Shown here: positions 7,745 to 63,965 of the stretch, piece by piece | How the letters are laid out: each line of letters starts with the position of its first letter | How positions within the stretch are numbered: the stretch's first letter is position 1 | Source: Fasciola hepatica | Lineage: Eukaryota > Platyhelminthes > Trematoda > Plagiorchiida > Fasciolidae | Direction of reading: 5' to 3' | Assembly: GCA_948099385.1 (NCBI GenBank) | Contig: CANUEZ040000113.1 | Location: forward strand, 6,336,501 to 6,400,500 | DNA length: 64,000 nucleotides | Program-made: the position numbers and the translations under genes | The notes under the pieces: generated by a model | The model's input: the letters and a program-made list of their open reading frames with translations, nothing else | The model's database searches: none | Told to the model about the DNA's origin: nothing

Positions 7745-7880
7745 CCCGACCGGCCGTATCACGGTAGCTTAGCTGGTAGAGCATCTGCCCGGCGAGCGGA
7801 ACGTAACCCGCTCAATTCAGGCTTAAGGCGCTGGACTTTTGAATGTGAAAAATCCAATGGATTTTCCTTTATATAAGAAT
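7745..7880 (+). repeat. tRNA-derived SINE-like repeat, family Z
   Basis: A-box TAGCTTAGCTGGTAGAGC at 7,765-7,782 is almost canonical. The B-box position is degraded to CTCAATTCAGG. The body has GAATGTGAAAAATCCAATGG. A true tRNA is unlikely because the T arm is broken and the same body follows other copies (5,160-5,310 and 36,840-36,995). Confidence 0.6.
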
Positions 7881-8079
7881 CATGCTCCTCTTACCAGTAG
7901 CACATTGTAGAGATTTTATCAGCAGTCTGGACGACTTCATCTTAATTTCGCGTAGTGTTAATACAAATTTTCAAATTGTACCTAATGACCAGTTACCATG
8001 TTTTACTTTGAAAGACTGGTGATTTTCCGAGCTAGCTGGGTGACATGACTAAAATATATCTAGGAATTGTAGGCCATTT

Positions 8080-8800: not shown

Positions 8801-9924
8801 AATGACTTACCCCCAAGCAAATGACATTTATCAAAACCCAATATTTCTTGTGACACTGACAACTGGGTGGGCACGAAATTGTCACCATAAGTAACCTTTT
8901 TCACGACTGGTTTCACAAGCGAATGGAATTAGAACGACAACCTAGAGCAATAAACAACAGGCGGACAACATAAATAGAGAGACAAACACACAAGCATAAC
9001 GCGACCAAAGCCCACTTGCTCTGGGCTTTCAATTCAGTTCCATTCGCTTGTAAATCCAGCCTTGAACAACGTTACCCATGGTGACCAAAACGACAACAGC
9101 CGACCAAAGATTTCAACTACTCTGTGTTATTAAACAGTAAGATGGTACTGGAATAAATTACCATTTGTAAAATACTTTTAATTTTTTCGTTTTCGCTAGA
9201 AAAAAGGAATGAGTTTCTTACCTAAATCTCGCTTCAGGCTTTCACATCTATGTTCTAATAAGCGTACTCGTGCTTAATCAGTAAATTGGGTATTTTGCGT
9301 CAAATCCATTGACTTGACTGCAAACAAACGGGATAAAATCAGCAAAAGAAGAAAATCAAATAAACAAATACGAACAACATTTGGTAAAATGTTGACACAA
9401 AGTCGACCTCATGACCACATTTAGGAATCTGACAGCAAAAGTCAGGCTTCACAGCAAGCGAGTGTTCAGAATACCTTGTATCACATCTGAAGCCATAGGG
9501 ATGACAATTATGAAACCCGAATGGCAGAAAGTAGAACGACCTGGTGCAACCGATAATCCTAGCAAGGCCGTATGAGTTGAATGCTTTCACTTCAATCAAA
9601 TGTTTACCCCCAATCTTACGGGCAAATTTAAGCTTGTAACAATTTCTTCACGAAAGTGATAGTTAACACAGTGTATTCGCATGTATTTGGCAACTACTTA
9701 GGAATAGTGCGTGGAATAGATGATACTCTGCATTCGTTGAGTCAGCTCTTCGTTGCTTCATCGGATATAATAAAGTCACGGTTTTCGAATCACAAGATTA
9801 TTTTGTCGGTTAACACGGTCAATCTTGAGAACGAGGACACATAGTCCCAAGTTTAGATTTCCGCCATAAGTAGTAGGATGTCTTACGATTCAAATGATAT
9901 TATGGTGAAAAACCAACTGTAGTG
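8801..9924. other. no recognised feature
   Basis: Follows the PLE coding remnant and may contain its 3' non-coding part, but I see no landmarks. Short frames on both strands are unsupported. Confidence 0.4.
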
Positions 9925-10050
9925 TGCTTAAGTATGGGGATGATTAAGCAGAAGAGTACGGGGTACGCAGAACTGATGAGCGGCAGCAACTGCGAAACCG
10001 GTCTTGGGCTTCCCAGAAAACTTTTCTTGTCTTCCAGATGCAACACTATA
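9925..10050 (+). ncRNA. hammerhead ribozyme-like motif A in interspersed repeat
   Basis: The core CTGATGA lies at 9,973-9,979. Stem II is GCGG/CTGC around loop CAGCAA, and GAAAC lies at 9,994-9,998. A 2-bp stem III with a CG loop then leads to GTC, with predicted cleavage after C10,003. Stem I would pair the bases before CTGATGA with TTGGGC after the site, and an outer helix GGG/CCC is possible. The inner stem I has two mismatches, so activity is uncertain. The repeat aligns with those at 37,079-37,200, 59,640-59,800 and (minus) 32,110-32,260. Hammerheads are known in Penelope-like elements and schistosome repeats, and PLE fragments flank this copy on both sides. Confidence 0.7.
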
Positions 10051-10141
10051 CTAAACAAAGCGAAAATGATAAAGTCATGAATACAAGCTATCGGGTTGTA
10101 GTTGGAGAGAGTCCTTGGTCTGTCTGAGTTGAATTAGCAAA

Positions 10142-10705
10142 TTGTTGTCTATCCGAAAGAGCACCAGTAGCATACAAGACCAAACTAATTACATTTATGA
10201 GATCAACTGCAAGGATTGTCCTGCCACAAACATTGGGCAAACAAACAGGCAGTTAAAAGTGGGGCTTTTGGGACATAAAAGAAAAGAGGAATCCAGGACG
10301 ACTGACCGAATCGCTATGATGAAATCGCAGCGCGACTCAGATATCGCACTCCACGCTATAACCAAAAACCACACTATCGATTACGATAAGGCTAGAATCC
10401 TCCAACGGGGTTTCTGTACATACACTGAGCGCTTATACGTCGAGACTTCGGCAATTACCGCCCAATCTATATGCCTCAACCGAAACGATAGGGCACAGAT
10501 TCTAAGCACATGGACGGCACTAATATCGCTGATGAGTGAATCCCCCAAAGTTCACAACACCTCGTTGACCGTAGATGATCGCGCCGCCACCGAGGGAATT
10601 GGGACCCGTTCCCCGCACCCACAGGACAAGTATACACACAGGCCCTTACTACCGCACGAAAGGCATGACACCCAATGGCTGAGAATATATCCCAAGATCA
10701 TTTGA
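10142..10705 (+). pseudogene. Penelope-like GIY-YIG endonuclease fragment
   Basis: A frame of about 187 codons that starts at a TTG, so it is a fragment rather than a gene start. Residues 19-40 read IYEINCKDCPATNIGQTNRQ, which is the GIY-YIG core spaced around a Cys pair. The first Tyr-containing motif is kept, but YIG has become NIG. ALHAITKNHTIDYDKARIL and YTERLYVETSA follow the usual PLE endonuclease layout (the H...D helix and the E-containing helix). After about residue 125 the sequence no longer resembles the family. No RT is visible upstream. It differs in sequence from the PLE pieces at 8.1 and 27 kb, suggesting a separate lineage. Confidence 0.65.
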
Positions 10706-14159: not shown

Positions 14160-14735
14160 CACTGATATAATGTCTGAGTATAGTCGGGGTGGTTGCCTCA
14201 GGCTCCGAAATGGCTACTTATTCAGGATGCCTCTTGAAATCCTCCCAAATGACCGTACATCTCAAACAGCCTCGCATGAAGAATTTCTACTTACTGCCTT
14301 CTCATGGCGGAGGTGCTCCCACTAAAATGAGAGGACGAAAACGAATGCTCGACCCTTTCCACCTGGTTGAATGACTGGTAGTCAGTCCAAGGGAAATGAT
14401 TAGACCTTGATTTCAAACCAACCACGGGTAGCGTATGAGGCCTACAACACTATGCTCACCAGCATATACGGGGGAAGGACGTACCGGGTACCCAGGATAT
14501 CTGGCCCTATCCTAGGGGTACGTAAACTGATCAGTTTGTCGCCTGCTCCCAGAGGGTTACGAGACACTCACATCGTCCTACTGCCTTTTAGGTTAGACGT
14601 TCTGATCAAAGGCTGGGGCAAAGCCTCCTAAATCAACTCTCTCTCTATCGATCTGGGCAATTAAGTAGTATTCATCTCACAAACCTACGTGGAATAGAAA
14701 TGAAAAAGTGGAGGCCAAGCCATAACTCAGCACCG
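14160..14735 (+). mobile_element. LINE 5' leader repeat, copy 1
   Basis: Aligns with 54,955-55,400 and 63,150-63,965. Shared blocks include ATGGCTACTTATTCAGGATG, CTACTTACTGCCTTCTCATG, GAGAGGACGAAAACGAATGC, AACCAACCACGGGTAGCG, ATGCTCACCAGCATATACGG and, at the far end, GAAAAAGTGGAGG followed by CCATAAC. Because the 55-kb copy is followed by a LINE endonuclease in the same orientation, this is best read as the leader of that LINE family, or a repeat co-mobilised with it. The frames at 14,189-14,374 and 14,407-14,631 are not separate genes. Confidence 0.55.
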
Positions 14736-17949: not shown

Positions 17950-20190
17950 TCGACGTACAAATGATAAGTCCTGTAATAAACGTTTTTTTGTTGAAATCCT
18001 TCCTGTGAGAATGTGGGATAACTCATTGTCGATAGGCAGCCAAGATTCTCTTTCGTTTCTGTTATGCGGGCAGTTCTTGCAAGAGGATAAGTCTGTTTCA
18101 TTAAGGTCCCTAATGCCACCATCTCATGAGCGGCCATCAGATGCGAGACCTGAGCACAGGGAAATCCAGTCCTGTTTCTAGTTGCTATTGCCGTGGGCAG
18201 ATTGGAGTCCTCATCGCTCAAAGTTCGATTTGACGGTACTGGTCAACATTTTCAGCTGTCCTCCAAGGCAACTGCGCCATTCTGAACATAGAATAAGAGA
18301 AAGGCACTATGTTAGATTCCCGTGTTTGGACGTCGTAAAACATGATCAAACCAGAGCAGTCGTCATCTTTTGAGGAACACTGACAGCTTTTGGATACTGA
18401 AGCACTGTTGTCTCATTGCGTCTTTTGAAAGCACATCGCGCAAAGCCTCTTTCGAGATCCTTCGCAGACACCAAAAGTCAAACACTTCCGGCTTACTCAT
18501 GTCCTCAACGCGTAGTGGCCACGTCTCACAACCGTAGGTCGGTAGTGGACGGATAGCGACCCGGAAGATACGGACTTCGATCTGGAGGCTGATTTCGTTG
18601 CGCGCTCAGAGTGCCTTACGGAGCTGGAGGAACACAATTTTGGTGTAGTCAATGCTCGTCGCTTGGGATAATACAAAAGCCCAAATAACTGAAAGCCGAG
18701 TAGAGCTTAACTGGTTCGCCGTTTACGAATATCGGAAGAATGGACTGTATAGAGCTTGTCGAAAGGATCTTGGTCTGCAAGGTATTGATGTCTAGCCCCA
18801 TAGATTTAGCAAAATATCTCACACTATTGAGAACAGGCTTTAAGACCATAAGGCTGTCTCCAAGGTTGTCGATGTCGTCTGCGAATTCTAGGTTAGCAAG
18901 AAAAGCATCGGTGCTCAGCCGTGAGTGAATGACGCATATTTCAATCGGCGGCTTACTTGAACAGTACTAGCTGCAAGAGCTAGCCCTGCTTAACACCGAA
19001 TTTGAGGGAGAAGTCATTGGACTCCTCTTCGTAGATGCGCATTCTCGCATGCGTATTTGCTCAGTGTGAATTCATGGGGCTGACAACCCTCAGGGGCATT
19101 CCGTCCACTTGTAGTCTAGTCCGTCCCGATTCTCTGTCAACTGAGTCAAAGGCTGCCCGAAAATCAATAAAACGAGCCGCATTCCGTTGCTGAAACATGT
19201 AGATGTTCTAATACCCTGCGGAGGATGAATATTTGGTCCACTCAAAATCTAGCATGGTGGAAGCCTCCCTGAATAGGGCATGTGCAAGCATCCCGCATCA
19301 CTGAGAAGCGGTTCAACAAAAGCAAGGAGAATATTTTGGCGACCAAGTCGACTAAACTGACGTCACAGTAGTTTGCGCACACAGTCTTGTAACCTTTCTT
19401 CGAAAGCTCCACAGTCCATTTGGAATTGTCCCTCTTTATAAATTGAACAAAACAAGGTGTGCAATGGTTCGAGACGATTTATTTATCTCCGGTCCAACAC
19501 CGTCTTCTCCGGGAGCTTTCCGGTTTTTCAGCTTGTGTATTACAGCCGTGATTTCATCTCTGCTGGACTGACGAAATTTGGTTCACAGAGATTGCCGTTG
19601 GACGGCTCAGTAACCAGTCGAAGTGCGCGGTGCATCGTTGTATCTTTTTAGCTTGCTCACGAATGAGTAGCCCAGCAGCCGACTGTCGCTTGCTGAATGC
19701 AGTGAAGATTAGATGGAAGGACTTTGAGAAGTCCCCCGCGGTTATCCGCCGTCTCCATGACTTCCTTGATTTCCACTCAGTATCTGCAGCGGTTGCTTCC
19801 GGTCGAAGGAATGTCCTTTCGTCAGGAGTTTGGATAACCATTGAGGCGGGCATCTCTAGCCTTTTTGGATGACTAGAGAGTCACTCCTGAGATCCAGTCC
19901 TTCTTTTGTCATCACGTAAACCCAAGCTCATCTGAAGTGGATGGTTGGACCGATGCCTATTGATTTCCTACCTGTACCTCTTCTCAATCTATGAACGTGG
20001 TGGTTAGATGGAAGTCAGTAACGTTTGAGACACATTGGTGCTTTCTCGGCGATCCTAACTGGACTGCTTTAATCTGCTTCGGCGCACAGTTTTGAGGCCA
20101 TTAGTATGGCGGATCGTGAAGCGAGCACGGACAAGAGTATGTTGGGCACCATTCTTTTTACCAGTTTCTTGTCCCAGTAATGCGAGCTGT
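17950..20190 (-). mobile_element. LINE (RTE-like), minus strand, degenerate
   Basis: Read 5' to 3' on the minus strand. The endonuclease C-terminus is HTLVRARFTIRHTNG (near 20,110). The linker and RT entry (19,853-19,554) include FSKSFHLIFTAFSKRQS and IREQAKKIQRCTAHFDWLL. RT motif A is FIDFRAAFDSVD (near 19,150), with the catalytic Asp present. A broken motif B is near 18,990. Motif C is EFADDIDNL, with FADD at 18,874-18,885. The tail is WFDHVLRRPNTGI (near 18,330), followed by the C-terminal block to about 17,950. Stops and frameshifts separate all blocks. The 5' half lies inside the tandem duplication, so 22,941-24,116 repeats it without the 3' half. Frames at 19,457-19,651, 19,630-19,872 and 20,296-20,736 on the plus strand are antisense. 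Confidence 0.7.
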
Positions 20191-20739
20191 CTTCACTTTA
20201 ATATGTCCAGCGTGATTGTATCAGAATTTATTCTATCTGGTACACTGTGTGATAGCCATTAGAGTACACGTGAGTAATGCTTCCTGGAATGTTGGATGCG
20301 GGTGTTGGTGACGGCTAAGCTGTTGAAGTCTGCAATGCTGACGAGACTTTCGCCACCTGCTGCACTTCTGCCAAGATTCTTTAACAGTCAACAAGTCAGT
20401 GCCCGTGCGGAACCCAGGTCAGCAATTAAACCAAGGGATACTCAAGTGACAAGGCAGAGGATCAATAAGACGAGGACCGATCCCCGTCAAGTGGTAGCTG
20501 GGCCCATCACCAATCAACCAATCAGATGCAAAGTCACCGGATGCAATTTCGAACAAATTAGTTTTGTGTTGCAACGGTTGGTGACAATTACAGTTCCTTC
20601 CTATATGAACAATGTCCTCTGTGCTGATAAACTGAGATGGATCAAAAGCGTCAAAGTCTCCTCACTAGAGTTAGTGGGACGGAAGAGAACATTTTCCTCA
20701 TATCCGACTTTGATTTTTCATGACTTTAAAATTTAGCTG

Positions 20740-22209
20740 TTATAAATCATGAAAACCAACACCTTTTAACCTATCGCACTCACTTCCAAATTAGAAACCC
20801 TGAACATTTTAACTTTCAAGCGCGCTTCCAAATAAGAACCTTCATACTAAAGTGTAGATTCCGATGTTTCTATTCTCAGAAGTTTGGCTCTGAGAAACCG
20901 TAGTGATCGAGGTTCATAGGCTTGTTCACGTGAATAATTGACGTTCTTGGACCGCTGTCAGTAGTGCTTAAATCCATTGAAATTTACCTCACTTCTTGGA
21001 TCATTTATTGTTCATGCGCTTTAGAAGACTGTATACCCCATCGAATTCAATGCGTTCCCTAACTGAATTTGCTGATGAATATTATGCTTAGAAGAGCTCT
21101 ATTGAGAGTCTCGTGCACATTTGATCCTGATTAAGAACTCCTTTGAAATTGTACGTCAGTACTGATCCTCATAAGGACGTAGTAAGGAGGCTGTTATATT
21201 GAAGCCGGTTTGTACCTGTGCCTTCATGTGATAACATTGCTTCCCGTTTGACTAAATTAGCATTCATTTGTTCTAATCTTCATATTTGACTTTGTTCGCG
21301 GCCTTTTTCTCCACGGCTCTGAGTAGCTTTCGTGATTTGCTACGAGTTTTTCTATGGTTTTTGCAGGCTTGTGAGTGTCTGTTATTCCCTGGGATTGCTG
21401 GACACTTCTAGTCACTTCACTATTTGATGTTCGAGCCTAATTTAGCTCTCCGGTTGTTCGTGCACTGATATCCGTTATTTTTGCTTCAGGTATCTCTGAA
21501 GCTCGTACAAATCGAACTGAATATTGTTCGTCCTCGAAGGTTAACAGCTGACCAATAAAGAGCAATGACTTATACCATCAATAAAACAAATCTCAGGTGT
21601 TTCACTTCCAGGTATATCTATCTGAGGGTCGTTGATCGATACACTTCTTTTATCCATGGTTGTTACCTTAGATGACCCCTTCATAAACCTAGTGGTCGAG
21701 TCTTCTCATCAGCAAACTCTGTGTGGCTGATGTTCTTTCAGCTTTTAACCATTAGTTTATCAAGTACGGAAATATATCCTGCCTAACGGTGCTTTTTTGC
21801 TTGAGTTGGAGTCACCTAAGCAACGGTACCAGATCAAGAACTTTCGTCACATAGAGGACGCCTCTTATTGAGACATGTTCTAAAGACTCTTCTTGCTCTT
21901 GTGTGTTTTTAAGGTAAAAAACTAAATCTCGTCCTTGTTTGTGACCGTCTTTTACTTGATTTTTTAGAGGAGCTAGACGTTCATCGGTTCGTAATATCCC
22001 GTGATAGTTTCTTGGTTTCCTTAATCAGAAACTAACCAGAAACTACCCTTCCTTAGCATGGAAATGGCACTTTGATCGTGAACTGCTTGGAAATAGCCTG
22101 TCACATCTTTCAGAAACGAAATAGCAAACACGATCATTTTGATCAATTCAAACTAATCAAATTCAAATGGAGAATAAAGAATGATAAGAGAAAACACTTG
22201 TCAATGATG
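20740..22209. other. no recognised feature
   Basis: T-rich plus strand with no long frame and no recognisable domain. The same content repeats at 24,666-26,135. Not explained by any transposon landmark I know. Confidence 0.45.
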
Positions 22210-22345
22210 TCTTTGGTCAAACGGTAATCTTGGTGGACGTTAGACCCCTCGTTTCGGGGTTCGAATTCCTCCGCCAACGGTCAGTTCCCCCGATTGACAG
22301 TCTCCAATTGACCGCGCACCCTACCTGAAATATTGTACCTTTATC
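22210..22345 (+). repeat. tRNA-derived SINE-like repeat, family W, copy 1
   Basis: GGTCAAACGGTAATC resembles an A box and GGGGTTCGAATTCC is a near-perfect B box. A body with GATTGACAGTCTCCAATTG follows. The same head and body occur at 46,680-46,815, and by the local duplication at 26,136-26,271. The antisense frame at 22,217-22,561 is not a gene. Confidence 0.55.
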
Positions 22346-22940
22346 ATATAATAAAAGAGATGTATATGTACACATACCATATTTGTATACGTGCCTGTGG
22401 GTATGCATCGAAGTCGTCATGTCGTATGTATGCCGTTGATGTTCTATACACTGTGCCTTGTGTCTGTCTTCGGGGTAAAACCAAAATAGAAAATGATTCA
22501 GGAGTATCGCAATCGACTTAGCCGTAACTGAGACGTCAATCGTAACCCATTTTTTAAACATTTATTCAAAACTTGAAGTTCGAGATTTGATCACATGACT
22601 CAATTCCATGAAATGTTGGTTTGTACGTCTCAAATGTAGTTTTTATGCTCTTCACCAATACTGTATCTTGCCAACTCTGGTGAACTTCGCTCATTAAAGT
22701 CGGCTTTTATATCGACTTATATGTGCCTCAACTTAGACTTATACCAATCCATAGGTATGAATAATATGACGTAGAAATGAAGTGTAGGCTGTCTTCCAAG
22801 GTGTACAAATTGAAAGCTGAATAAGACGTGATACCCAGCTTAAAATGTTACTCATCTGGAAACCCGTTCAGAGTCACATATTTGTGGTTACGTCAGGGTG
22901 TTTATCAACATCTTCTTCACGCTGAGCTTGGCCCTTAGGT

Positions 22941-24116
22941 CATTGGACTCCTCTTCGTAGATGCGCATTCTCGCATGCGTATTTGCTCAGTGTGAATTCA
23001 TGGGGCTGACAACCCTCAGGGGCATTCCGTCCACTTGTAGTCTAGTCCGTCCCGATTCTCTGTCAACTGAGTCAAAGGCTGCCCGAAAATCAATAAAACG
23101 AGCCGCATTCCGTTGCTGAAACATGTAGATGTTCTAATACCCTGCGGAGGATGAATATTTGGTCCACTCAAAATCTAGCATGGTGGAAGCCTCCCTGAAT
23201 AGGGCATGTGCAAGCATCCCGCATCACTGAGAAGCGGTTCAACAAAAGCAAGGAGAATATTTTGGCGACCAAGTCGACTAAACTGACGTCACAGTAGTTT
23301 GCGCACACAGTCTTGTAACCTTTCTTCGAAAGCTCCACAGTCCATTTGGAATTGTCCCTCTTTATAAATTGAACAAAACAAGGTGTGCAATGGTTCGAGA
23401 CGATTTATTTATCTCCGGTCCAACACCGTCTTCTCCGGGAGCTTTCCGGTTTTTCAGCTTGTGTATTACAGCCGTGATTTCATCTCTGCTGGACTGACGA
23501 AATTTGGTTCACAGAGATTGCCGTTGGACGGCTCAGTAACCAGTCGAAGTGCGCGGTGCATCGTTGTATCTTTTTAGCTTGCTCACGAATGAGTAGCCCA
23601 GCAGCCGACTGTCGCTTGCTGAATGCAGTGAAGATTAGATGGAAGGACTTTGAGAAGTCCCCCGCGGTTATCCGCCGTCTCCATGACTTCCTTGATTTCC
23701 ACTCAGTATCTGCAGCGGTTGCTTCCGGTCGAAGGAATGTCCTTTCGTCAGGAGTTTGGATAACCATTGAGGCGGGCATCTCTAGCCTTTTTGGATGACT
23801 AGAGAGTCACTCCTGAGATCCAGTCCTTCTTTTGTCATCACGTAAACCCAAGCTCATCTGAAGTGGATGGTTGGACCGATGCCTATTGATTTCCTACCTG
23901 TACCTCTTCTCAATCTATGAACGTGGTGGTTAGATGGAAGTCAGTAACGTTTGAGACACATTGGTGCTTTCTCGGCGATCCTAACTGGACTGCTTTAATC
24001 TGCTTCGGCGCACAGTTTTGAGGCCATTAGTATGGCGGATCGTGAAGCGAGCACGGACAAGAGTATGTTGGGCACCATTCTTTTTACCAGTTTCTTGTCC
24101 CAGTAATGCGAGCTGT
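22941..24116 (-). mobile_element. LINE 5' half, duplicate copy
   Basis: A duplicate of 19,015-20,190. It carries the endonuclease C-terminus, linker and RT motif A (FIDFRAAFDSVD) on the minus strand, but lacks motif B, FADD and the tail because the duplication breakpoint cuts the element. Never a separate insertion. Confidence 0.75.
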
Positions 24117-24665
24117 CTTCACTTTAATATGTCCAGCGTGATTGTATCAGAATTTATTCTATCTGGTACACTGTGTGATAGCCATTAGAGTACACGTGAG
24201 TAATGCTTCCTGGAATGTTGGATGCGGGTGTTGGTGACGGCTAAGCTGTTGAAGTCTGCAATGCTGACGAGACTTTCGCCACCTGCTGCACTTCTGCCAA
24301 GATTCTTTAACAGTCAACAAGTCAGTGCCCGTGCGGAACCCAGGTCAGCAATTAAACCAAGGGATACTCAAGTGACAAGGCAGAGGATCAATAAGACGAG
24401 GACCGATCCCCGTCAAGTGGTAGCTGGGCCCATCACCAATCAACCAATCAGATGCAAAGTCACCGGATGCAATTTCGAACAAATTAGTTTTGTGTTGCAA
24501 CGGTTGGTGACAATTACAGTTCCTTCCTATATGAACAATGTCCTCTGTGCTGATAAACTGAGATGGATCAAAAGCGTCAAAGTCTCCTCACTAGAGTTAG
24601 TGGGACGGAAGAGAACATTTTCCTCATATCCGACTTTGATTTTTCATGACTTTAAAATTTAGCTG

Positions 24666-26135
24666 TTACAAATCATGAAAACCAACACCTTTTAACCTAT
24701 CGCACTCACTTCCAAATTAGAAACCCTGAACATTTTAACTTTCAAGCGCGCTTCCAAATAAGAACCTTCATACTAAAGTGTAGATTCCGATGTTTCTATT
24801 CTCAGAAGTTTGGCTCTGAGAAACCGTAGTGATCGAGGTTCATAGGCTTGTTCACGTGAATAATTGACGTTCTTGGACCGCTGTCAGTAGTGCTTAAATC
24901 CATTGAAATTTACCTCACTTCTTGGATCATTTATTGTTCATGCGCTTTAGAAGACTGTATACCCCATCGAATTCAATGCGTTCCCTAACTGAATTTGCTG
25001 ATGAATATTATGCTTAGAAGAGCTCTATTGAGAGTCTCGTGCACATTTGATCCTGATTAAGAACTCCTTTGAAATTGTACGTCAGTACTGATCCTCATAA
25101 GGACGTAGTAAGGAGGCTGTTATATTGAAGCCGGTTTGTACCTGTGCCTTCATGTGATAACATTGCTTCCCGTTTGACTAAATTAGCATTCATTTGTTCT
25201 AATCTTCATATTTGACTTTGTTCGCGGCCTTTTTCTCCACGGCTCTGAGTAGCTTTCGTGATTTGCTACGAGTTTTTCTATGGTTTTTGCAGGCTTGTGA
25301 GTGTCTGTTATTCCCTGGGATTGCTGGACACTTCTAGTCACTTCACTATTTGATGTTCGAGCCTAATTTAGCTCTCCGTTTGTTCGTGCACTGATATCCG
25401 TTATTTTTGCTTCAGGTATCTCTGAAGCTCGTACAAATCGAACTGAATATTGTTCGTCCTCGAAGGTTAACAGCTGACCAATAAAGAGCAATGACTTATA
25501 CCATCAATAAAACAAATCTCAGGTGTTTCACTTCCAGGTATATCTATCTGAGGGTCGTTGATCGATACACTTCTTTTATCCATGGTTGTTACCTTAGATG
25601 ACCCCTTCATAAACCTAGTGGTCGAGTCTTCTCATCAGCAAACTCTGTGTGGCTGATGTTCTTTCAGCTTTTAACCATTAGTTTATCAAGTACGGAAATA
25701 TATCCTGCCTAACGGTGCTTTTTTGCTTGAGTTGGAGTCACCTAAGCAACGGTACCAGATCAAGAACTTTCGTCACATAGAGGACGCCTCTTATTGAGAC
25801 ATGTTCTAAAGACTCTTCTTGCTCTTGTGTGTTTTTAAGGTAAAAAACTAAATCTCGTCCTTGTTTGTGACCGTCTTTTACTTGATTTTTTAGAGGAGCT
25901 AGACGTTCATCGGTTCGTAATATCCCGTGATAGTTTCTTGGTTTCCTTAATCAGAAACTAACCAGAAACTACCCTTCCTTAGCATGGAAATGGCACTTTG
26001 ATCGTGAACTGCTTGGAAATAGCCTGTCACATCTTTCAGAAACGAAATAGCAAACACGATCATTTTGATCAATTCAAACTAATCAAATTCAAATGGAGAA
26101 TAAAGAATGATAAGAGAAAACACTTGTCAATGATG
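24666..26135. other. no recognised feature (duplicate)
   Basis: Second copy of 20,740-22,209. It differs from the first at 24,669 and 25,379. No gene seen. Confidence 0.45.
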
Positions 26136-26271
26136 TCTTTGGTCAAACGGTAATCTTGGTGGACGTTAGACCCCTCGTTTCGGGGTTCGAATTCCTCCGC
26201 CAACGGTCAGTTCCCCCGATTGACAGTCTCCAATTGACCGCGCACCCTACCTGAAATATTGTACCTTTATC
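26136..26271 (+). repeat. tRNA-derived SINE-like repeat, family W, copy 2
   Basis: Duplicate of the element at 22,210-22,345, with the same B box GGGGTTCGAATTCC, carried along by the tandem duplication. Confidence 0.55.
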
Positions 26272-26979
26272 ATATAATAAAAGAGATGTATATGTACACA
26301 TACCATATTTGTATACGTGCCTGTGGGTATGCATCGAAGTCGTCATGTCGTATGTATGCCGTTGATGTTCTATACACTGTGCCTTGTGTCTGTCTTCGGG
26401 GTAAAACCAAAATAGAAAATGATTCAGGAGTATCGCAATCGACTTAGCCGTAACTGAGACGTCAATCGTAACCCATTTTTTAAACATTTATTCAAAACTT
26501 GAAGTTCGAGATTTGATCACATGACTCAATTCCATGAAATGTTGGTTTGTACGTCTCAAATGTAGTTTTTATGCTCTTCACCAATACTGTATCTTGCCAA
26601 CTCTGGTGAACTTCGCTCATTAAAGTCGGCTTTTATATCGACTTATATGTGCCTCAACTTAGACTTATACCAATCCATAGGTATGAATAATATGACGTAG
26701 AAATGAAGTGTAGGCTGTCTTCCAAGGTGTACAAATTGAAAGCTGAATAAGACGTGATACCCAGCTTAAAATGTTACTCATCTGGAAACCCGTTCAGAGT
26801 CACATATTTGTGGTTACGTCAGGGTGTTTATCAACATCTTCTTCACGCTGAGCTTGGCCCTTAGGTAGCAAGCTTTTCATCACGAGTTCAGTTAGCATCC
26901 TTAGTGTACAGTTAAAAGTTCACAGCCTTTTGATATCCTTATCCCAATTCGGAAATATCTAACACCATTCTGTCCACAG

Positions 26980-32109: not shown

Positions 32110-32260
32110 TCCACCTGCTAGATTTCAAGCCCTTGTCTAGTAGTAGTATGCAAATAGGTGGATGAAATTTCCCCCGGAGCACGTGATCAGTTTCGCCGTT
32201 ATTACCACTCATCAGTTATGCGTGCCCGGTAACCCTCTGCCCAATCATCCTCGTACTTGC
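32110..32260 (-). ncRNA. hammerhead ribozyme-like motif D in interspersed repeat
   Basis: On the minus strand CTGATGA is at 32,215-32,209, GAAAC at 32,194-32,190, and the predicted cleavage follows C32,185. Stem II (GTGG ... CGGC around TAATAA) has one mismatch. Stem III has a C/A mismatch. Stem I pairs GCAT with GTGC after two unpaired positions, and the outer CCGG/CCGG helix is kept. Upstream GGATGATTGGGCAGAGGG and downstream TTTCATCCACC match the other three copies. The defects suggest reduced or lost activity. Confidence 0.65.
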
Positions 32261-32355
32261 ACTCTCTTATTTCACGTTTATCTCTAGGATTTATTCGGAA
32301 GCTTCAGAGGCTCCCGGGCAAAGTTCTTCCACTCATGTACATACTACAAATCATC

Positions 32356-36537: not shown

Positions 36538-36839
36538 TATAAAGTTAGTGCTGGTAGTTGACGAGATTCTAAAGCGGTCACAAGCTCTCCTACTCATTTA
36601 AGTAGAAAGGTGCATCACAGAATAATCAATAACCAGTAAATATAAAACTAATTTTTCTTTAACTTATTTATCATCAGTTTCAAACTCGGCCTTTTTTTAT
36701 TTGTATCATTTACATATCACAGGTCCTGACTTGGACCCAAGTGAAAAGCCACAAAGCTTGTATTTACTGCAGCTATCCGTTTTATCAGAGTATGTCAGAC
36801 AAGTGATATCTATTCTTGAAGTTTATTATTAGTACAAGG

Positions 36840-36995
36840 TGCCTGATTCATATAAGTACCGGAAAATCCACGTGAATTTTTCACACTTTTAAGTTCGGTG
36901 CCGCTAGCCGGAATCGGACCGTCGACCTCCCACTTACCGGGCAAATGCTTTACTAGGTGAGTTACCACGTAGCGGCCAATTGGGTGCTGATAAAA
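36840..36995 (-). repeat. tRNA-derived SINE-like repeat, family Z
   Basis: On the minus strand, TGGTAACTCACCTAGTAAAG (A-box-like) and GGTCCGATTCC (B box) are followed by AAAAGTGTGAAAAATTCACG, matching the body of the copies at 5,160-5,310 and 7,745-7,880. Antisense frames at 36,810-37,122 are repeat noise. Confidence 0.6.
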
Positions 36996-37078
36996 CAAGC
37001 GAAGATTCAACGGATGACAAGACAAAATTACCCCGGAAGCACTCGACCGGATCAAGGTGATGTATCAAATGTGGAATG

Positions 37079-37200
37079 CTCAAGTATAAGGATGATTTGG
37101 CAGGAGAGTACCGGATACTCATAGCTGATGAGCGGCAGCAACAGTGAAGCCGGTCGTATGCATCTATGGGGATTTTGTTCTATTATCCAGATGCAAAAAC
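37079..37200 (+). ncRNA. hammerhead ribozyme-like motif B in interspersed repeat
   Basis: CTGATGA is at 37,125-37,131 and stem II/loop is CGG/CAGCAA/CAG. The GAAA position reads GAAG (37,146-37,149). The short stem III with CG loop leads to GTC, with the predicted site after C37,155. Stem I pairs CATA before the core with TATG after the site, a sequence different from the other copies but still paired. The GAAA to GAAG change and the lost closing pair of stem II suggest a weakened or dead ribozyme. The repeat extends to CCAGATGCAAAAAC. Confidence 0.65.
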
Positions 37201-38439
37201 TTATTGTTTACATCAGAAATCGAAACTTGGGACCATGAATCCTTGAGCTGAAGATTGACCTTGACTACAGACGAAATAACTTTCAAAGAATTACAATCGG
37301 AATGCGAATACTGATATCAGGTGAGAATTGATTCTTTATCAAATAGATGGAATGCAGCACGTCACTCGAGCTGACTGTCCTTGTTGATTTGATCAATTTG
37401 ACAGTTCCTCTTTTCACAGGAACCACCCATCCACCACTGTGACCCTGAAGTCCATTAAACAGGTCACTTCACGACCACATAATTCCAAAGGCAGGCATTC
37501 ACTTTGTTCTGTCGATCGTTCTTGAAGCTTAACTTTTACTGGCGTAATCTTGAATGACTTTCTCGTTCGGTATCGTTCACTATCCCTCCTATAGTTTGAC
37601 TTGTACCGATATAAGTATACTGAACTGGATAATAGTGACCATATGGAGGTAGATAAGACGCTTCTTTATGAGTGCACCCGGTCTCGTCACATTCACTCCC
37701 TCCCCTGGCAAATTTTCTGTGCAAACTACCAGCGCCTATGCACGGACGGGCTCGAAGGATCGCCCTACTTTCAATGACTTGACGGGCTGACGTGGATGAC
37801 GTGCAATAAAGCCATGATAATCTTGGGCAAAAGAAGTCGTAGGGTTAGGATCCCTGTTATTTCTGCGGGATCCACCTAATCTGCTAATCCGATCGTTGAT
37901 AACAAAACAGATATGCTAGAGCTATGAAATTCGTGATGCGGTTGCGTCACTCATCCCATTCATCCTATTTTCGCGCTCTGGGTGCGCTCTTCTGAGTGGT
38001 TAACTCGGTTATGAATCCAACCGACTAATTTGGTTCAGACGACGGATAACAATTAATTGGTCCTCCGGTCCGTTCTGTTTCGCTCTAATTCTGTCTTCAG
38101 TTCATGGAAAACGAAGACATTCTGGCTATTCGCCGAACCATTGTGCCGTCAACTAAACGAATTAGGCCGTTTATTGACAATGTGCCAGCCCATTCATTCA
38201 CAACATGTATTCTTAGTGACTCCTTAAAGTTCCAAACGTTGAGTAAGTGATTCAGCGGGCGCAACTCCTTTCTTTCACGGGTTTTCACAAAAGACTATCG
38301 CAGTCTTACGGTGTTTAACGATACTAAAGCTCTACTCAGACGCAAATATCCCTCAAGTCCATGACGTAGACTCTCTAAGATCCAGAGGTTTCGTTTGCAA
38401 CTTCGGAGTTGTCATTTGAAGCATTTAGGACTAGCGGCC
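37201..38439. other. no recognised feature
   Basis: Short frames on the minus strand (37,536-37,724, 38,097-38,288) are unsupported. Confidence 0.45.
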
Positions 38440-45276: not shown

Positions 45277-45867
45277 CTAACTCATCGTGGTAGAAGTCGA
45301 TGCTGATGACGAAAGAGGCTGTCCAGATGCGTGCGTGGAACTAAGAGGAATCACTTTCAGTTCACTACGCATGCACAGCACCTCGCCCATCACCGTGCTC
45401 ACCACGACGGAGACCACATTCACGATCCACCATAGCGAGGATCGGGGCAACGTGTGTGCGTATAGCAGGCAGAAAATCAGATGCCAGAAATGGATTGTGC
45501 AAGCAAAATCTAAGCACTGTTTGGTCCGTTGTACCAAACGCCAGATTCCCAGTCCGGAACACAAGGCGGTCAGTAGAAATGAGACAAAAATGCACTTTCC
45601 AGAAGCTTGAGAAAATCGCAAATGTTGAGCGTCAAATAGCCAGGACAACTGCGGCCAGTCGCGTAAAAACGTCACGGAAGCGAGAGTGAGAAAGGCACTG
45701 GCGCAGAGATAGAAAACACACTGCATGCACACAATCTGACTGCATATCAAAATTGGATCTAAAACGCCGCTACGAAACTTGGGAGCCATGCGATCGGTGC
45801 CCGCGAAACGTGCTGTCCGAGGTACTCGGTGACTGAACCGCCTGTCGCCTTCGTCAATAGGTTCCAT
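45277..45867 (-). CDS. SYS1: Sys1 homologue, Golgi membrane trafficking protein
   Basis: An uninterrupted frame of 196 codons. From the second in-frame ATG (45,789) the 170-residue protein begins MAPKFRSGVLDPILICSQIV and matches animal SYS1 end to end. Landmarks are LFDAQHLRFS (the MFDAE..GFS block), RTKQCLDFACTIHFWHL, LWWIVNVVSVVV, GEVLCMRSELKVIPL and a Ser/Thr-rich C-tail. Four hydrophobic helices are visible at about residues 41-65, 92-114, 122-141 and 145-166. SYS1 is a trans-Golgi membrane protein that recruits the small GTPase ARFRP1 (yeast Arl3p) and so supports golgin and vesicle tethering. The upstream ATG (45,867) adds 26 residues not seen in relatives, so I prefer 45,789. Neither start has a purine at -3. 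Being intronless, it is either a native single-exon gene or an intact retrocopy. No clear poly(A) signal or promoter was found. Confidence 0.88.
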   Translation of the reverse strand: MEPIDEGDRRFSHRVPRTARFAGTDRMAPKFRSGVLDPILICSQIVCMQCVFYLCASAFLTLASVTFLRDWPQLSWLFDAQHLRFSQASGKCIFVSFLLTALCSGLGIWRLVQRTKQCLDFACTIHFWHLIFCLLYAHTLPRSSLWWIVNVVSVVVSTVMGEVLCMRSELKVIPLSSTHASGQPLSSSASTSTTMS

Positions 45868-47899: not shown

Positions 47900-48450
47900 C
47901 ACTGAGAGATAGCGGCCAAAGCCACCACATCCAGTGCATTGCTAACGGTTGTCTGAATCGAAGTGGGGTGTATGGGGTATCTGAGAGGAGTAGCACCTTT
48001 GAGTTGGTTGACTGTCGTGTCCCTTGGGGCATCCTCCATCTCCTCGGTCTCCACCATTCACCCAGATCTTACCTATGGCTCCACGAAGCTGAATCATGCA
48101 TCAGCGGCCACACCCCGGTAAACCGTTCGACAGGCGGACTAAACCAGGTTGAGGGTTACCAAGGTCTAAAAAACTTCGGCGAGACGATGTTCGGCATGTG
48201 AAGACAGATTCTCCTGAATGAGCGGACGAGATCTATTGATCCAACGGCCACAAAGTAGACCTGTTCAACTGCCTGATCCGGCATTCCAGAGGAAACGAAC
48301 GAACCGTACAACAGGTCACCGGCTCCTCTGGGAACACCCCGCGGCCTTGCAGTCTGCACTTGGGTGTGCAAGGGCTAGAAATGCAACCTCGAACAAAAAG
48401 GCCGAACGGTGCTAGGGACACCGTTTCGTACACTACTCCCGCGACTCTCT
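47900..48450 (+). mobile_element. LINE 5' leader
   Basis: Non-coding region leading into the endonuclease ORF in the same orientation. It has the layout expected of the element's 5' UTR (G/C-richer than its surroundings, no stable frame). No second copy in the window confirms the boundary. Confidence 0.4.
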
Positions 48451-49509
48451 ATGATTATTCACGAAACCTCAAGCGTTCATCATGACACGGCGTCCCCGGT
48501 AAGCGACGCGCCTCGTGTCCCAGCGGTCGAGGTGAAAAGACAACAGGCTGGGATTATTCGCTGCAGGAAAAGAACGCACACATCCTGTTGGAATGTAAGG
48601 ACTTTTCTAGACGTCAGCAGTCAGTGCATCACAATGCGGACTCTACGTGGCTATGACGTGGATTGTGCTTGCCTCTCGGAAGTCCGCCTGTCTAACTCAG
48701 GTAGCCGACAAATAAAGGTCCCGGGTGTGGATACATCCTATTGGCTCTATCACAGTGGCCCAAAAGACAAATCCGGTCTCTACGGTGTCGCGTTTACTCT
48801 TAACAAAGCAGCTAATGATGCAATGATCTCTTGGGAACCAGTCTCATCTAGACTCACCTTGGCACGCTTTAAAGGCTACCCGCACGGCTTGACAGTGATC
48901 ACGATCTCTGTTCCAACCAACTCGGCTGATGACGAAACCAAAGACGAATTCTACAATAACTTGCACGAGGTAATCAACCGGGTTTTAAGGCGAGACGTAC
49001 CTCTCATCGCAGGAGATTGGAACGCTCGCACAGGTACGGTCGACGAATCCAACCGCCATATTCTCGGGAGATTCGGTCTCAGTCAGCGCTGCGAGAACGG
49101 CGGCCGACTGATTGATTTAGCCGACGTCAACAGAATGGTTGTCTGCAGCACTCGATTCCAACACCCCAAGAAGCACTTACTCATACGGTACTCCAATGAC
49201 GGTCACACTCTACACCAACTCGACCACATCCTGGTGAGAACCCGTTGGATTTCGTCTGTGGAGGATTGCCGAGTGTACCGATGTGCAAAAATGGGCAATA
49301 CAAATGGCACCGACCATGTCCCCCTACGCGCGTGCTTCAAAATTCATTTGTCTACACGTGCTAGATTCTCTGCACTCTCCCGGATAAATGTTGCTTCCCT
49401 AGAAAATCCAGAGAAGCGAGAAGCGTTATCACGAGCAATCACAACTCGACTCATTACTGCAACCAACGCACAAGAAAACGAAATTTCCGTGAAAGGGCAG
49501 TGGACTTGA
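48451..49509 (+). CDS. LINE APE-type endonuclease ORF, apparently intact domain
   Basis: The frame from the ATG at 48,451 runs 352 codons to a TGA at 49,507, with APE endonuclease residues in order: WNVRTF (Asn), CLSEVRLSNSG (Glu), LIAGDWNARTGTV (GDxN), LDHILVRTRW, and NGTDHVPLRACF with the terminal Asp-His pair. These are the metal-binding and catalytic positions of LINE endonucleases, which nick the target for reverse transcription. The same frame continues past the TGA and one more stop into the linker, so the functional ORF has been cut by point stops. Of all the endonuclease copies here this is the only one with every key residue. A start further upstream at a GTG (48,409) is possible but less likely. 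Confidence 0.75.
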   Translation: MIIHETSSVHHDTASPVSDAPRVPAVEVKRQQAGIIRCRKRTHTSCWNVRTFLDVSSQCITMRTLRGYDVDCACLSEVRLSNSGSRQIKVPGVDTSYWLYHSGPKDKSGLYGVAFTLNKAANDAMISWEPVSSRLTLARFKGYPHGLTVITISVPTNSADDETKDEFYNNLHEVINRVLRRDVPLIAGDWNARTGTVDESNRHILGRFGLSQRCENGGRLIDLADVNRMVVCSTRFQHPKKHLLIRYSNDGHTLHQLDHILVRTRWISSVEDCRVYRCAKMGNTNGTDHVPLRACFKIHLSTRARFSALSRINVASLENPEKREALSRAITTRLITATNAQENEISVKGQWT

Positions 49510-51060
49510 ATAAAGATGACAATCAAGGAAGCTACCTGCACCGTACTCGGGAGAACAAAAAGGTTGGCAAAAAATCGGGTCTTCGAGAGCACGCTGCAGC
49601 TGTCAACCAAAGCACATGAAGCCTGACTATCAAGCAGTGATGAACGCCGCAGACCGCAACGAGAGGCCACACGCTCCGCCAACGCTGATCGCAAAAGATA
49701 CTGGATAGAAATAGCCGAAAAAATGGAGACCGCGTCCGGAATTGGTGACTTCGGTAAACTGTTCCGCCTTATTCGCAACGCCAGGAATAGCTTCAGCAAA
49801 CAATATTCGCTTCTTCGTGACACGGCAGGAAACTTAATACCCGAACAGAGTAAGAAAATGGACCGATGGGTCAAACAATTTGGTCAGCCGCTCAACCGGC
49901 CTACGGACCACCGGACGGACCAACCAATATCAGCCCCTCCAGTCCAGTACGAAAACAACTGTGACCCGCCCACAGAAATGATAAACAAACTGAAAGACAG
50001 AAAGGCTGCTGGGGAAGATGGCATCCCTCCGGAAGTGTATAAAGCATATTCATCGTCTCCGATTGACAGGCTCCATTTGGCGAGAGGAAGCATTTGCACC
50101 CGACTGGGGAATGTCCATACTACTGCCCATTCTGAAGAAAGGTGATAAATCAACATGTGAGAACTACCCAGGGATTAGCTTGATCGATGTGACCGCAAAT
50201 ATCTTTGGTGCGTTGTTAATAAACTGGTTCTCCGAGGCAACAGACCGGCGTACTCGCCCGAACCAAGGGGGTTTCCGCCATGGCAGAGGCTGTGTGGATC
50301 AAATCTTCACACTGCGCCGAATACTGGAGCACCACTATAAGTTCCAGCAGTTGACGGTAGCTTGTTCCATCGACTTCCGGGCAGTCTTCGATTCGGTTCA
50401 CTGCGAGTCTCTTTGGACGATAATACAATCCGACGGGATGCCCGATAAGCTTTTAAGGCTGTTAAGGGGATACTACTCGACAACCGGTGCTAGGGTTCGT
50501 ATGTACGGTGAAGAGTCCCGCGAGTTCACACTCACTACCGGAGTTAGGCAGGGCTGTCCCCTCTCACCGGTGCTGTTCAACTACGCCATTGATTGGTCAA
50601 TGGGTCACGCATTGCGCGACTACCCTGGCGTTCGGCTTAGCCAGGAAATATACATCACGGACCTGAAGTTCGCCGTCCTCCTCCAACGTCGACGACTTCA
50701 GTGGTTCGGCCGTACCCTTCGGTGACCCGAGTCAGAGATAACCAGACGAACGCTCTGTCCCACTCCCTGCCCTGATTGGCGTTATCGCCTTGGTGGGCTG
50801 ATCAAAACGTGGACCAATACAACAGAAAAAAAACGTTGAGCTTCTAGGCTTCCGGTCGGTCTACGGAGCCCTGCGACGGAAGAAGGACTGGATCATGATC
50901 AGTACCGAGCTCGCCTCCAACCACCGCGATGGTCCGTGATAGCCATAGAGCCCACTTATCCCCTCGCGGGAGATAGTCGCGCAAAAGTAAAAAAGTAAAA
51001 GTGAATTCCCGGTTACAGTCAAAGTGGAGGGATTGCATTTTACAGTTACAGTCAGCGGCT
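49510..51060 (+). pseudogene. LINE linker and RT with active site deleted
   Basis: The linker continues in the endonuclease frame: MNAADRNE-type region, GDFGKLFRLIRNAR, QSKKMDRWVKQFGQPLN, DRKAAGEDGIPPEVYKA (49,723-50,060). A frameshift near 50,075 moves the RT to the next frame: DWGMSILLPILKKGDKS, NYPGISLIDVTANIFGALL, CSIDFRAVFDSVHC (motif A, Asp present) and GVRQGCPLSPVLFNYAID (motif B, to 50,595). Then ITDLKFA is joined directly to RRRLQWFGRTLR (50,660-50,722), so the YADD motif C and everything to the tail are missing by deletion. The tail remnant with TWTNTTEKNVELLGF and LRRKKDWIMISTELAS runs to about 51,000. RT activity is impossible. Confidence 0.75.
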
Positions 51061-54954: not shown

Positions 54955-55400
54955 TTCAAGTTTCTGGGTCATGGTTTCAGTAGGCTTTCGAGGCCTCCAA
55001 GTGCCTCGGTATGGTCGGAGTGGGTATCTCTGGCTCTTAGATGGCTACTCTTCCTGGATGCCTCTAGAAATGCGTTTCAAAAAGCCTCCGCCAGGGAATT
55101 CCTACTCACAGCCTTCTCATGGTGAGGGTGTTCCCCAAAAATGATTGGATGGAAGCGAACCCCGGCGTTCTCCAGCGGGTTCACTGATCGACAAATTGTC
55201 CAGAGGACATGGTTAAAATCTGCTTCAAAACAAACCACGGATCGTGTACGAAGCATACAGCACTATGCTCACCGGCATCTGTAGCGAAAGAGTGTACTGG
55301 GCACCCAGAATGTCTAGCCTCATCCGAAGGGTGAATGAACTCAGCAATCAGTCACCGGCTCCCATAAGTTCTCAGAAAAGGCTTTGCAGGGAAGATGTCA
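54955..55400 (+). mobile_element. LINE 5' leader repeat, copy 2
   Basis: Shares with 14,160-14,735 and 63,150-63,965 the blocks GCCTCCAAGTGCCTCGGTAT, CTACTCACAGCCTTCTCATG, AACCACGGATCGTG, ACTATGCTCACCGGCATCTG and CACCCAGAATGTCTAGCCTC. It is followed at 55,670 by a LINE endonuclease in the same orientation, which ties the leader family to that LINE. Confidence 0.6.
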
Positions 55401-59639: not shown

Positions 59640-59800
59640 TAGACCGTAGTGAAGATATAAGAACGGAGTTTACAAGTATGAAGACGAGCGGGCAGAGGAG
59701 AATCGAGTACGTATGCCTGATGGGTGGCAACAACCGCGAAACTGGTCGTGTGCTTTCGGGGTAATTTTGTCCACCCACTTACATACTATATGATATCAAT
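59640..59800 (+). ncRNA. hammerhead ribozyme-like motif C in interspersed repeat
   Basis: CTGATGG is at 59,717-59,723 (last core base G instead of A). Stem II GTGG/CCGC around CAACAA is fully paired. GAAAC is at 59,738-59,742, the short stem III has a TG loop, and GTC gives a predicted cleavage after C59,747. Stem I is the best of the four: GTATGC before the core pairs through all six positions (with G-U pairs) with GTGTGC after the site, then CGA/TCG forms an outer helix. The A to G change in CTGATGA would probably impair cleavage. Confidence 0.7.

Positions 59801-63149: not shown

Positions 63150-63965
<816 letters not shown>

Follow-up and report, generated by a model that had tools for sequence, protein, structure and literature searches.

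Four short motifs resembling hammerhead ribozymes lie dispersed over the window, the 64-kb stretch of Fasciola hepatica DNA analysed here, and they raise the question of what kind of repeat carries them and which machinery has moved it. The original prediction placed them at 9973 (+), 37125 (+), 59717 (+) and 32215 (-), took all of them as hammerhead-like copies of a single mobile repeat, and pointed to Penelope-like elements and schistosome repeats; each of these proposals is upheld. Indeed, alignment (128-129 columns) and profile scores show that 9914-10041 (+), 37066-37194 (+), 59658-59785 (+) and 32147-32274 (-), called here copies 1 to 4, derive from one 128-bp block, with matches of 113-116 bits (E 2.2e-34 or better) that express mutual likeness rather than an independent test, the profile having been built from the same four sequences. 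A pattern of the motif, written post hoc from the four copies, matches exactly four times in the window, with 0.145 matches expected by chance per 64 kb in first-order Markov simulations; a chance motif is ruled out by this expectation and the profile scores. Two subfamilies can be distinguished, copies 1 and 2 being 73% identical, copies 3 and 4 70%, and members of different pairs 59-61%, and across the four-copy alignment 10 of the 12 core columns are invariant versus 40 of the other 117 (Fisher p 0.0013).

As read from its letters, the motif falls among the type I hammerheads, with CUGANGA ... GAAA ... UH, three predicted helices and an open end at stem I. The putative ribozyme of copy 1 (9959-10015, +) comprises outer and inner stem I, CTGATGA, stem II, GAA and ACCGGT; its core is intact, its stem II has four pairs and a 6-nt loop, two inner and one outer mismatches fall in stem I, the cut is predicted after C10003, and ACCGGT could form either a 2-bp stem III or a 6-bp dimer helix. 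In copy 2 (hammerhead 37111-37167, +) A15.1 is replaced by G and one stem II pair by a G-A mismatch; copy 3, of the second subfamily (59703-59759, +), has stems I, II and III fully paired and a G at core position A9; copy 4, its subfamily partner on the reverse strand, combines an ATC triplet and an intact core with mismatches in stems I and II. The architecture initially described as common to all four thus stands in part: the 4-bp stem II is fully paired in copies 1 and 3 and keeps three of four pairs in copies 2 and 4, the shared core is intact in two of the four (copies 1 and 4), and the 2-bp stem III does not extend to copy 4, which has C-A there. The conserved flanking blocks are confirmed, GGATGATT upstream and TCC... 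downstream, and in a fold of the majority sequence they can partly pair together as a long outer stem I. The window copies are decayed, and would be old copies of a protein-less element with one type I hammerhead of minimal stem III per unit.

The carrier had been considered not identifiable from the window alone; copies elsewhere in the genome now give it as a non-coding unit of ~301 nt, of which the 128-bp block is part (coordinates u, with u1 at window position 9914 and the unit sequence taken from locus L019). With copy 1 as query, the species' own assembly (1.4998 Gb in 656 contigs) yielded 1533 first-look candidates, the best-scoring 40 of which were scored and are 80-86% identical, the window itself excepted. 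Of the 39 non-window copies collected, L035-L037 were dropped, L034-L037 being one duplicated locus, and the remaining 36 make 40 with the window copies. The four loci in question have identical arm structures within 160 kb of contig C125, two per orientation, a segmental duplication. The majority hammerhead is complete, CCGG-GTAC-GCATAC-CTGATGA-GCGG-CARTAA-CYGC-GAA-ACCGGT-C/GTGTGC-TT-CCGG. In this sample, biased as it is towards top scores for a query that holds the hammerhead core, the core is intact in 35 of 40 copies where ~19 would be expected at the background rate, and core sites vary in 1.9% of cases versus 9.8% elsewhere in u1-130 (p 1e-5). When the count was repeated at sites where the query equals the consensus, as a control for this bias, the variability was 1.9% versus 7.2% over the 40 copies, with 35 intact cores versus 19.2 expected, and 1.6% versus 5.3% in the 36 genome copies alone, with 33 intact versus 19.5 expected. 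Loss of the core from other genomic copies was one half of what would have counted against the original prediction, and here the outcome is the opposite: the core is kept in 33 of the 36 examined. No copy of the unit was found in 24 kb of arbitrarily chosen genome sequence, and scanning viral and prokaryote contigs for motifs led nowhere.

Covariance models, the check proposed at the outset, gave a weak answer. Rfam returns only Hammerhead_HH9 (RF02275), the best model for two of the four window copies and yet sub-threshold (25.5 and 19.7 bits versus a gathering score of 52), no hammerhead match at all for copies 2 and 4, and none at the gathering threshold in seven genome loci checked. A covariance model of the four window copies reaches E below 0.6 only with its own four sequences, and energy folding alone fails to set the motif apart (z -0.75, -1.64, +0.95 and -1.76). 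The structure named by hand pairs in 79.7% of the cells of the four-copy alignment, slid versions giving 28-47%, and in 90.7% of those of the 40-copy alignment (39-46% when slid), where inner stem I reaches 87.5%, stem II 94.4% and stem III 98.8%. Covariation is weak because the copies are too alike, its score being equalled by 33 of 500 shuffles with four copies and 11 of 500 with 40, and stem II, together with a competing fold, is all that RNAalifold finds when unconstrained. A further ribozyme-like match in the window, HDV-like and also sub-threshold (drz-agam-1, 30.5 bits, cut-off 37), lies at 63268-63328 (+) within a repeat that recurs at 14206-14456 and 55039-55269 (77% and 68%), the former showing no HDV-like match.

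The unit is continuous at both junctions, u301 leading into u1 and u155 into u156. By hand tally, 17 of the 40 loci cross the second junction with no inserted stretch (L013, L015, L017, L019, L022, L023, L026, L027, L038, L040, L041, L043-L046 and window copies 1 and 2), and the arms of L017, L038 and L019 exceed one unit (374, 373 and 348 nt). No coding frame was found in the 40 copies, the GC content of the L019 unit is 47%, and no long tandem arrays were seen among the sampled loci. A unit that continues into itself in this way reads as circle-like or tandem anatomy, resembling a retrozyme rather than a pseudo-LTR (pLTR) followed by its gene.

The original prediction lacks one feature: at three of the four window loci, inverted fragments immediately precede the copy. 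The direct arm of copy 1 (9886-10066, +) covers u274-301 and then u1-154 (blastn of the 301-nt unit, 78%, E 1e-39), and its inverted head-to-head arm (9799-9875, -) covers u137-213 (78%, E 1e-13; 8.7e-13 against copy 2). In copy 2 the direct arm (37066-37294, +) spans u1-229 (72%, E 1e-40) and the inverted head-to-head arm (37012-37050, -) u85-123 (87%, E 3e-7 with the unit, 4.2e-7 in the copy comparison). Copy 4 has an inverted head-to-head arm at 32310-32347 (+), matching 95-132 of its own direct arm (79%, E 3.7e-6), with an E of 0.14 under the four-copy profile and no match with the L019-derived unit as query; copy-to-copy comparison of the flanks gives no inverted arm for copy 3. Among 400 random segments, five reach E 1e-3 and none 1e-4.

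Of the 40 copies, 25 are two-armed, the inverted arm facing the direct arm head-to-head, in a tally that sought the second arm mainly upstream of the direct arm and with the L019 unit, a query for which the other 15 show none; the full segment lists contain no adjoining tail-to-tail arms, and L012 has one inverted piece ~1 kb downstream. By hand tally, 20 of the 25 two-armed copies have one arm end near u283-303 (u~300) and the other near u129-156 (u~150), and in none do both arms end at the same site. A strict two-site rule is weakened, since an end falls elsewhere in the remaining five (L018, L027, L038 and window copies 1 and 2), and both arms of window copy 4, one-armed in this tally, seem to end near u132. 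Target duplications of 7-13 bp (score at least 7, 2.05% at random) flank 14 of the 25 two-armed and 2 of the 15 one-armed copies; at a score of at least 8 (0.35% at random) the counts are 11 and 1, and examples include 13 bp in L020 and 12 bp in L022, L030 and L034. The four window copies have no target duplication (scores 4-5), so that the combination typical of Penelope insertions, a head-to-head inverted copy plus a target duplication, is found in genome copies and not in those of the window. L024, L030, L034 and L039 share the junction u215/u231-233 in different flanks, so a two-armed copy can itself be the source of further copies, and not every inversion is an independent event. Inner arm ends fall within 6 nt of the predicted cut (u91) in 4 of 65 cases (hand tally), ~3 being expected if uniform, and with no pile-up there cleavage leaves no visible mark on the insertions. 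Self-primed snap-back of a cDNA begun at u~150 was rejected as the origin of the inverted arm, which mostly starts upstream of the direct arm and not inside it.

A candidate for the mobilising family is encoded by the same genome. Just downstream of copy 1 and outside the unit lies a 190-aa open frame (10133-10702, +), a relative of the Penelope-like GIY-YIG endonuclease. The frame itself has no match in Pfam, NCBIfam or PHROGs, protein and PDB searches led nowhere, and single-sequence AlphaFold gives a pLDDT of 29; in its own genome it has 149 other scored matches at 41-67% identity (150 scored, itself included, of 3175 candidates), one of which, L055 (62% identical), scores 25.6 bits with Pfam GIY-YIG (cut-off 22.6). 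Seven of these 150 lie in frames of 828-829 aa, and neighbours less than 10 kb apart form 7 tandem pairs (spacings of 2751-2755 bp, n=7), 15 head-to-head and no tail-to-tail pairs, that is, all 15 opposite-strand pairs within 10 kb are head-to-head. Judging from frame length, tandem spacing and endonuclease, the 828-829-aa frames would be complete autonomous elements. When their repeat was compared with the 301-nt unit in one family (L060, L061), the best matches had an E of 0.03-0.19 over 15-22 nt, which is not convincing as homology: these elements and the hammerhead unit have insertion geometry, not sequence, in common. By eye, the stretch GACCGAAACGTCG of the L060/L061 repeat, located between tandem 828-aa frames, resembles a hammerhead 3' half, and this half, GACCGAAACGTC, is accompanied by an odd 5' half. 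That the 10133 frame belongs to the insertion of copy 1 was considered and rejected, as the direct arm stops at 10066 and tblastn finds no match to the frame in 218 kb around the other collected copies. It shows, nevertheless, the family of the probable mobiliser.

The window holds other features besides. Identical open frames recur at a distance of 3926 bp (~19552-22561 and ~23478-26487), pointing to ~3.9 kb duplicated in direct orientation. A SYS1 homologue is encoded in one open frame at 45280-45864 (-), 72% identical to that of Echinostoma caproni, the nearest named, and 57% to that of Paragonimus westermani, an unnamed protein being closer (88%). A 130-bp repeat at 36837-36966 (+) and 7763-7889 (-), 70% identical, looks tRNA-like by eye and might be a SINE, the sole family that Rfam names there being a plastid 5'UTR below threshold at 36898-36976. 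Long open frames at 48379-50725 (+) resemble, by eye, a LINE endonuclease and reverse transcriptase.

The repeat family, the conservation of the core in the sampled copies, the continuity of the unit, the two arms with their end sites, the duplications and the common geometry are in our view best explained, with a probability of about 0.6, by a hammerhead retroelement that is non-autonomous and owes its movement to Penelope-type machinery, where ribozyme activity, a circular RNA and the mobiliser are what we infer. A Penelope mobiliser is suggested because many of the insertions have the same back-to-back geometry as the genome's Penelope-like elements.

Hammerheads in the pLTRs of Penelope-like elements have reportedly been described by Cervera and de la Pena in 2014 and by Lunse in 2017. 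According to published accounts of these elements, their pLTRs can lie inverted head-to-head, target duplications measure 8-10 bp and tails reach up to 22 codons (PMC3846280), and a Penelope protein cleaves and extends both target strands, with a hammerhead overlapping the start codon (PMC11167929). The fluke copies resemble them in the minimal hammerhead with an ATG inside the core, and in the head-to-head inverted arms, short 3' tail and target duplications (PMC11167929, PMC3846280); in contrast to them, no coding frame was found in the 40 copies, the unit runs into itself and there are two different common arm-end sites. Metazoan non-LTR retrozymes, reported also for platyhelminths in general (Cervera and de la Pena, 2020, PMC7229834), share with the fluke repeat, as far as the cited text describes them, a type I hammerhead, a non-coding unit of ~300 nt, a GC content below 50%, copies beyond one unit and target duplications of more than 4 bp (PMC7229834). 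A head-to-tail non-coding unit of 150-450 bp, a type I hammerhead, GC below 50% and duplications longer than 4 bp, which are among the features by which retrozymes are recognised, are found here. In contrast to the retrozymes so described, the fluke unit occurs mostly as dispersed pieces of ~0.5-1.2 units and not in long tandem arrays, often with a head-to-head second arm, and its stem III is of the minimal Penelope type; two-armed retrozyme insertions receive no mention in the titles and abstract openings of the literature surveyed. The Sm-alpha/W-elements of Schistosoma mansoni, compared by description only, likewise place a hammerhead in a trematode repeat (335 bp in W36.2_W001), that of the W-elements having an extremely short stem III, and are presented in the text cited as satellite-like or SINE-like and with no two-armed insertions (PMC8490949).

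The main competing explanation, which we consider unlikely, holds that the unit is the solo pLTR of an unsampled autonomous Penelope-like element, the ATG in CTGATGA being a start codon. It would account for the minimal stem III, the inverted arms and the target duplications, and also for a 3' end ~23-31 codons past the ATG, comparable to the 22 codons reported for A. vaga Pen2a (PMC3846280); moreover, the frame from the ATG is open to the block end in three of the four window copies (read by hand), and an ORF starting inside the hammerhead is on record for the Anolis Penelope element PAc (PMC11167929). However, the 17 loci spanning u155/u156 continue there without a break into more of the unit, third codon positions after the ATG show no excess of change (9.8, 8.7, 9.1%), tblastn gave no match to the 10133 endonuclease frame in the 218 kb searched around the copies, and the single Penelope repeat compared, from one family, is unrelated to the unit.

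More doubtful still is the proposal that a LINE moves the repeat, which would be a SINE-like or satellite-like hammerhead element akin to Sm-alpha, its inverted arms being ordinary 5' inversions produced by twin priming. In such inversions the inverted part abuts the direct part, whereas here it overlaps it, which argues against this explanation in spite of the trematode host, the LINE-like frames read by eye within the window and a unit size near the 335 bp of the Sm-alpha representative W36.2_W001 (PMC8490949). Finally, the repeat might merely retain an old hammerhead sequence with no working ribozyme, as the damaged window copies, the sub-threshold Rfam scores, the weak covariation and arm ends bearing no mark of cleavage could suggest; this we regard as very improbable, given that the core varies three to five times less than other parts of the same copies and is common to two subfamilies only ~60% identical.

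For the non-autonomous retroelement moved by Penelope-type machinery, the following cycle can be proposed. Genomic copies would be transcribed, and the hammerhead would cut its own RNA, probably as a dimer held by an ACCGGU helix, given the motif and the published behaviour of dimers. The palindromic ACCGGU suggests such dimer cleavage, which is reported for newt and Penelope-type hammerheads (PMC6155905 and PMC7761336, where the 2017 work of Lunse is cited). The released RNA would be ligated into a circle or left multimeric, as copies longer than one unit suggest, and a Penelope-like reverse transcriptase/endonuclease would use it as template, priming cDNA from both cut target strands. The two cDNAs would start mostly about half a unit apart, at u~150 and u~300, and join head to head between short target duplications. 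The more specific proposition, that the element is a retrozyme with a Penelope insertion signature, whose 301-nt RNA, probably a circle, is reverse-transcribed from both target strands, with one cDNA begun at u~150 and the other at u~300 across the circle from it, is advanced tentatively, at less than even odds. In circular-RNA folding, the pairs setting u150 opposite u300 number 13 both in the majority sequence and in L015, 5 in L045, 4 in L044, 3 in L038 and L023 and none in L019, L022 and L017, so that the predicted circle does not consistently place u150 opposite u300. If the pairing of u~150 with u~300 is true, one RNA would be engaged at two sites by a two-subunit Penelope complex.

Penelope elements have been named a strong candidate for the mobiliser of retrozymes on the basis of common hammerheads, tandem copies and co-occurrence, as stated in PMC7229834. 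The head-to-head signature described here lies in the insertions themselves and is common to the copies of the Penelope-like endonuclease, which makes the question of the mobiliser testable both by sequence and in vitro, and the large genome of the fluke supplies a hammerhead retroelement whose record of insertions is unusual. Should the pairing of the two sites prove true, the long-sought mobiliser of animal retrozymes would have been identified.
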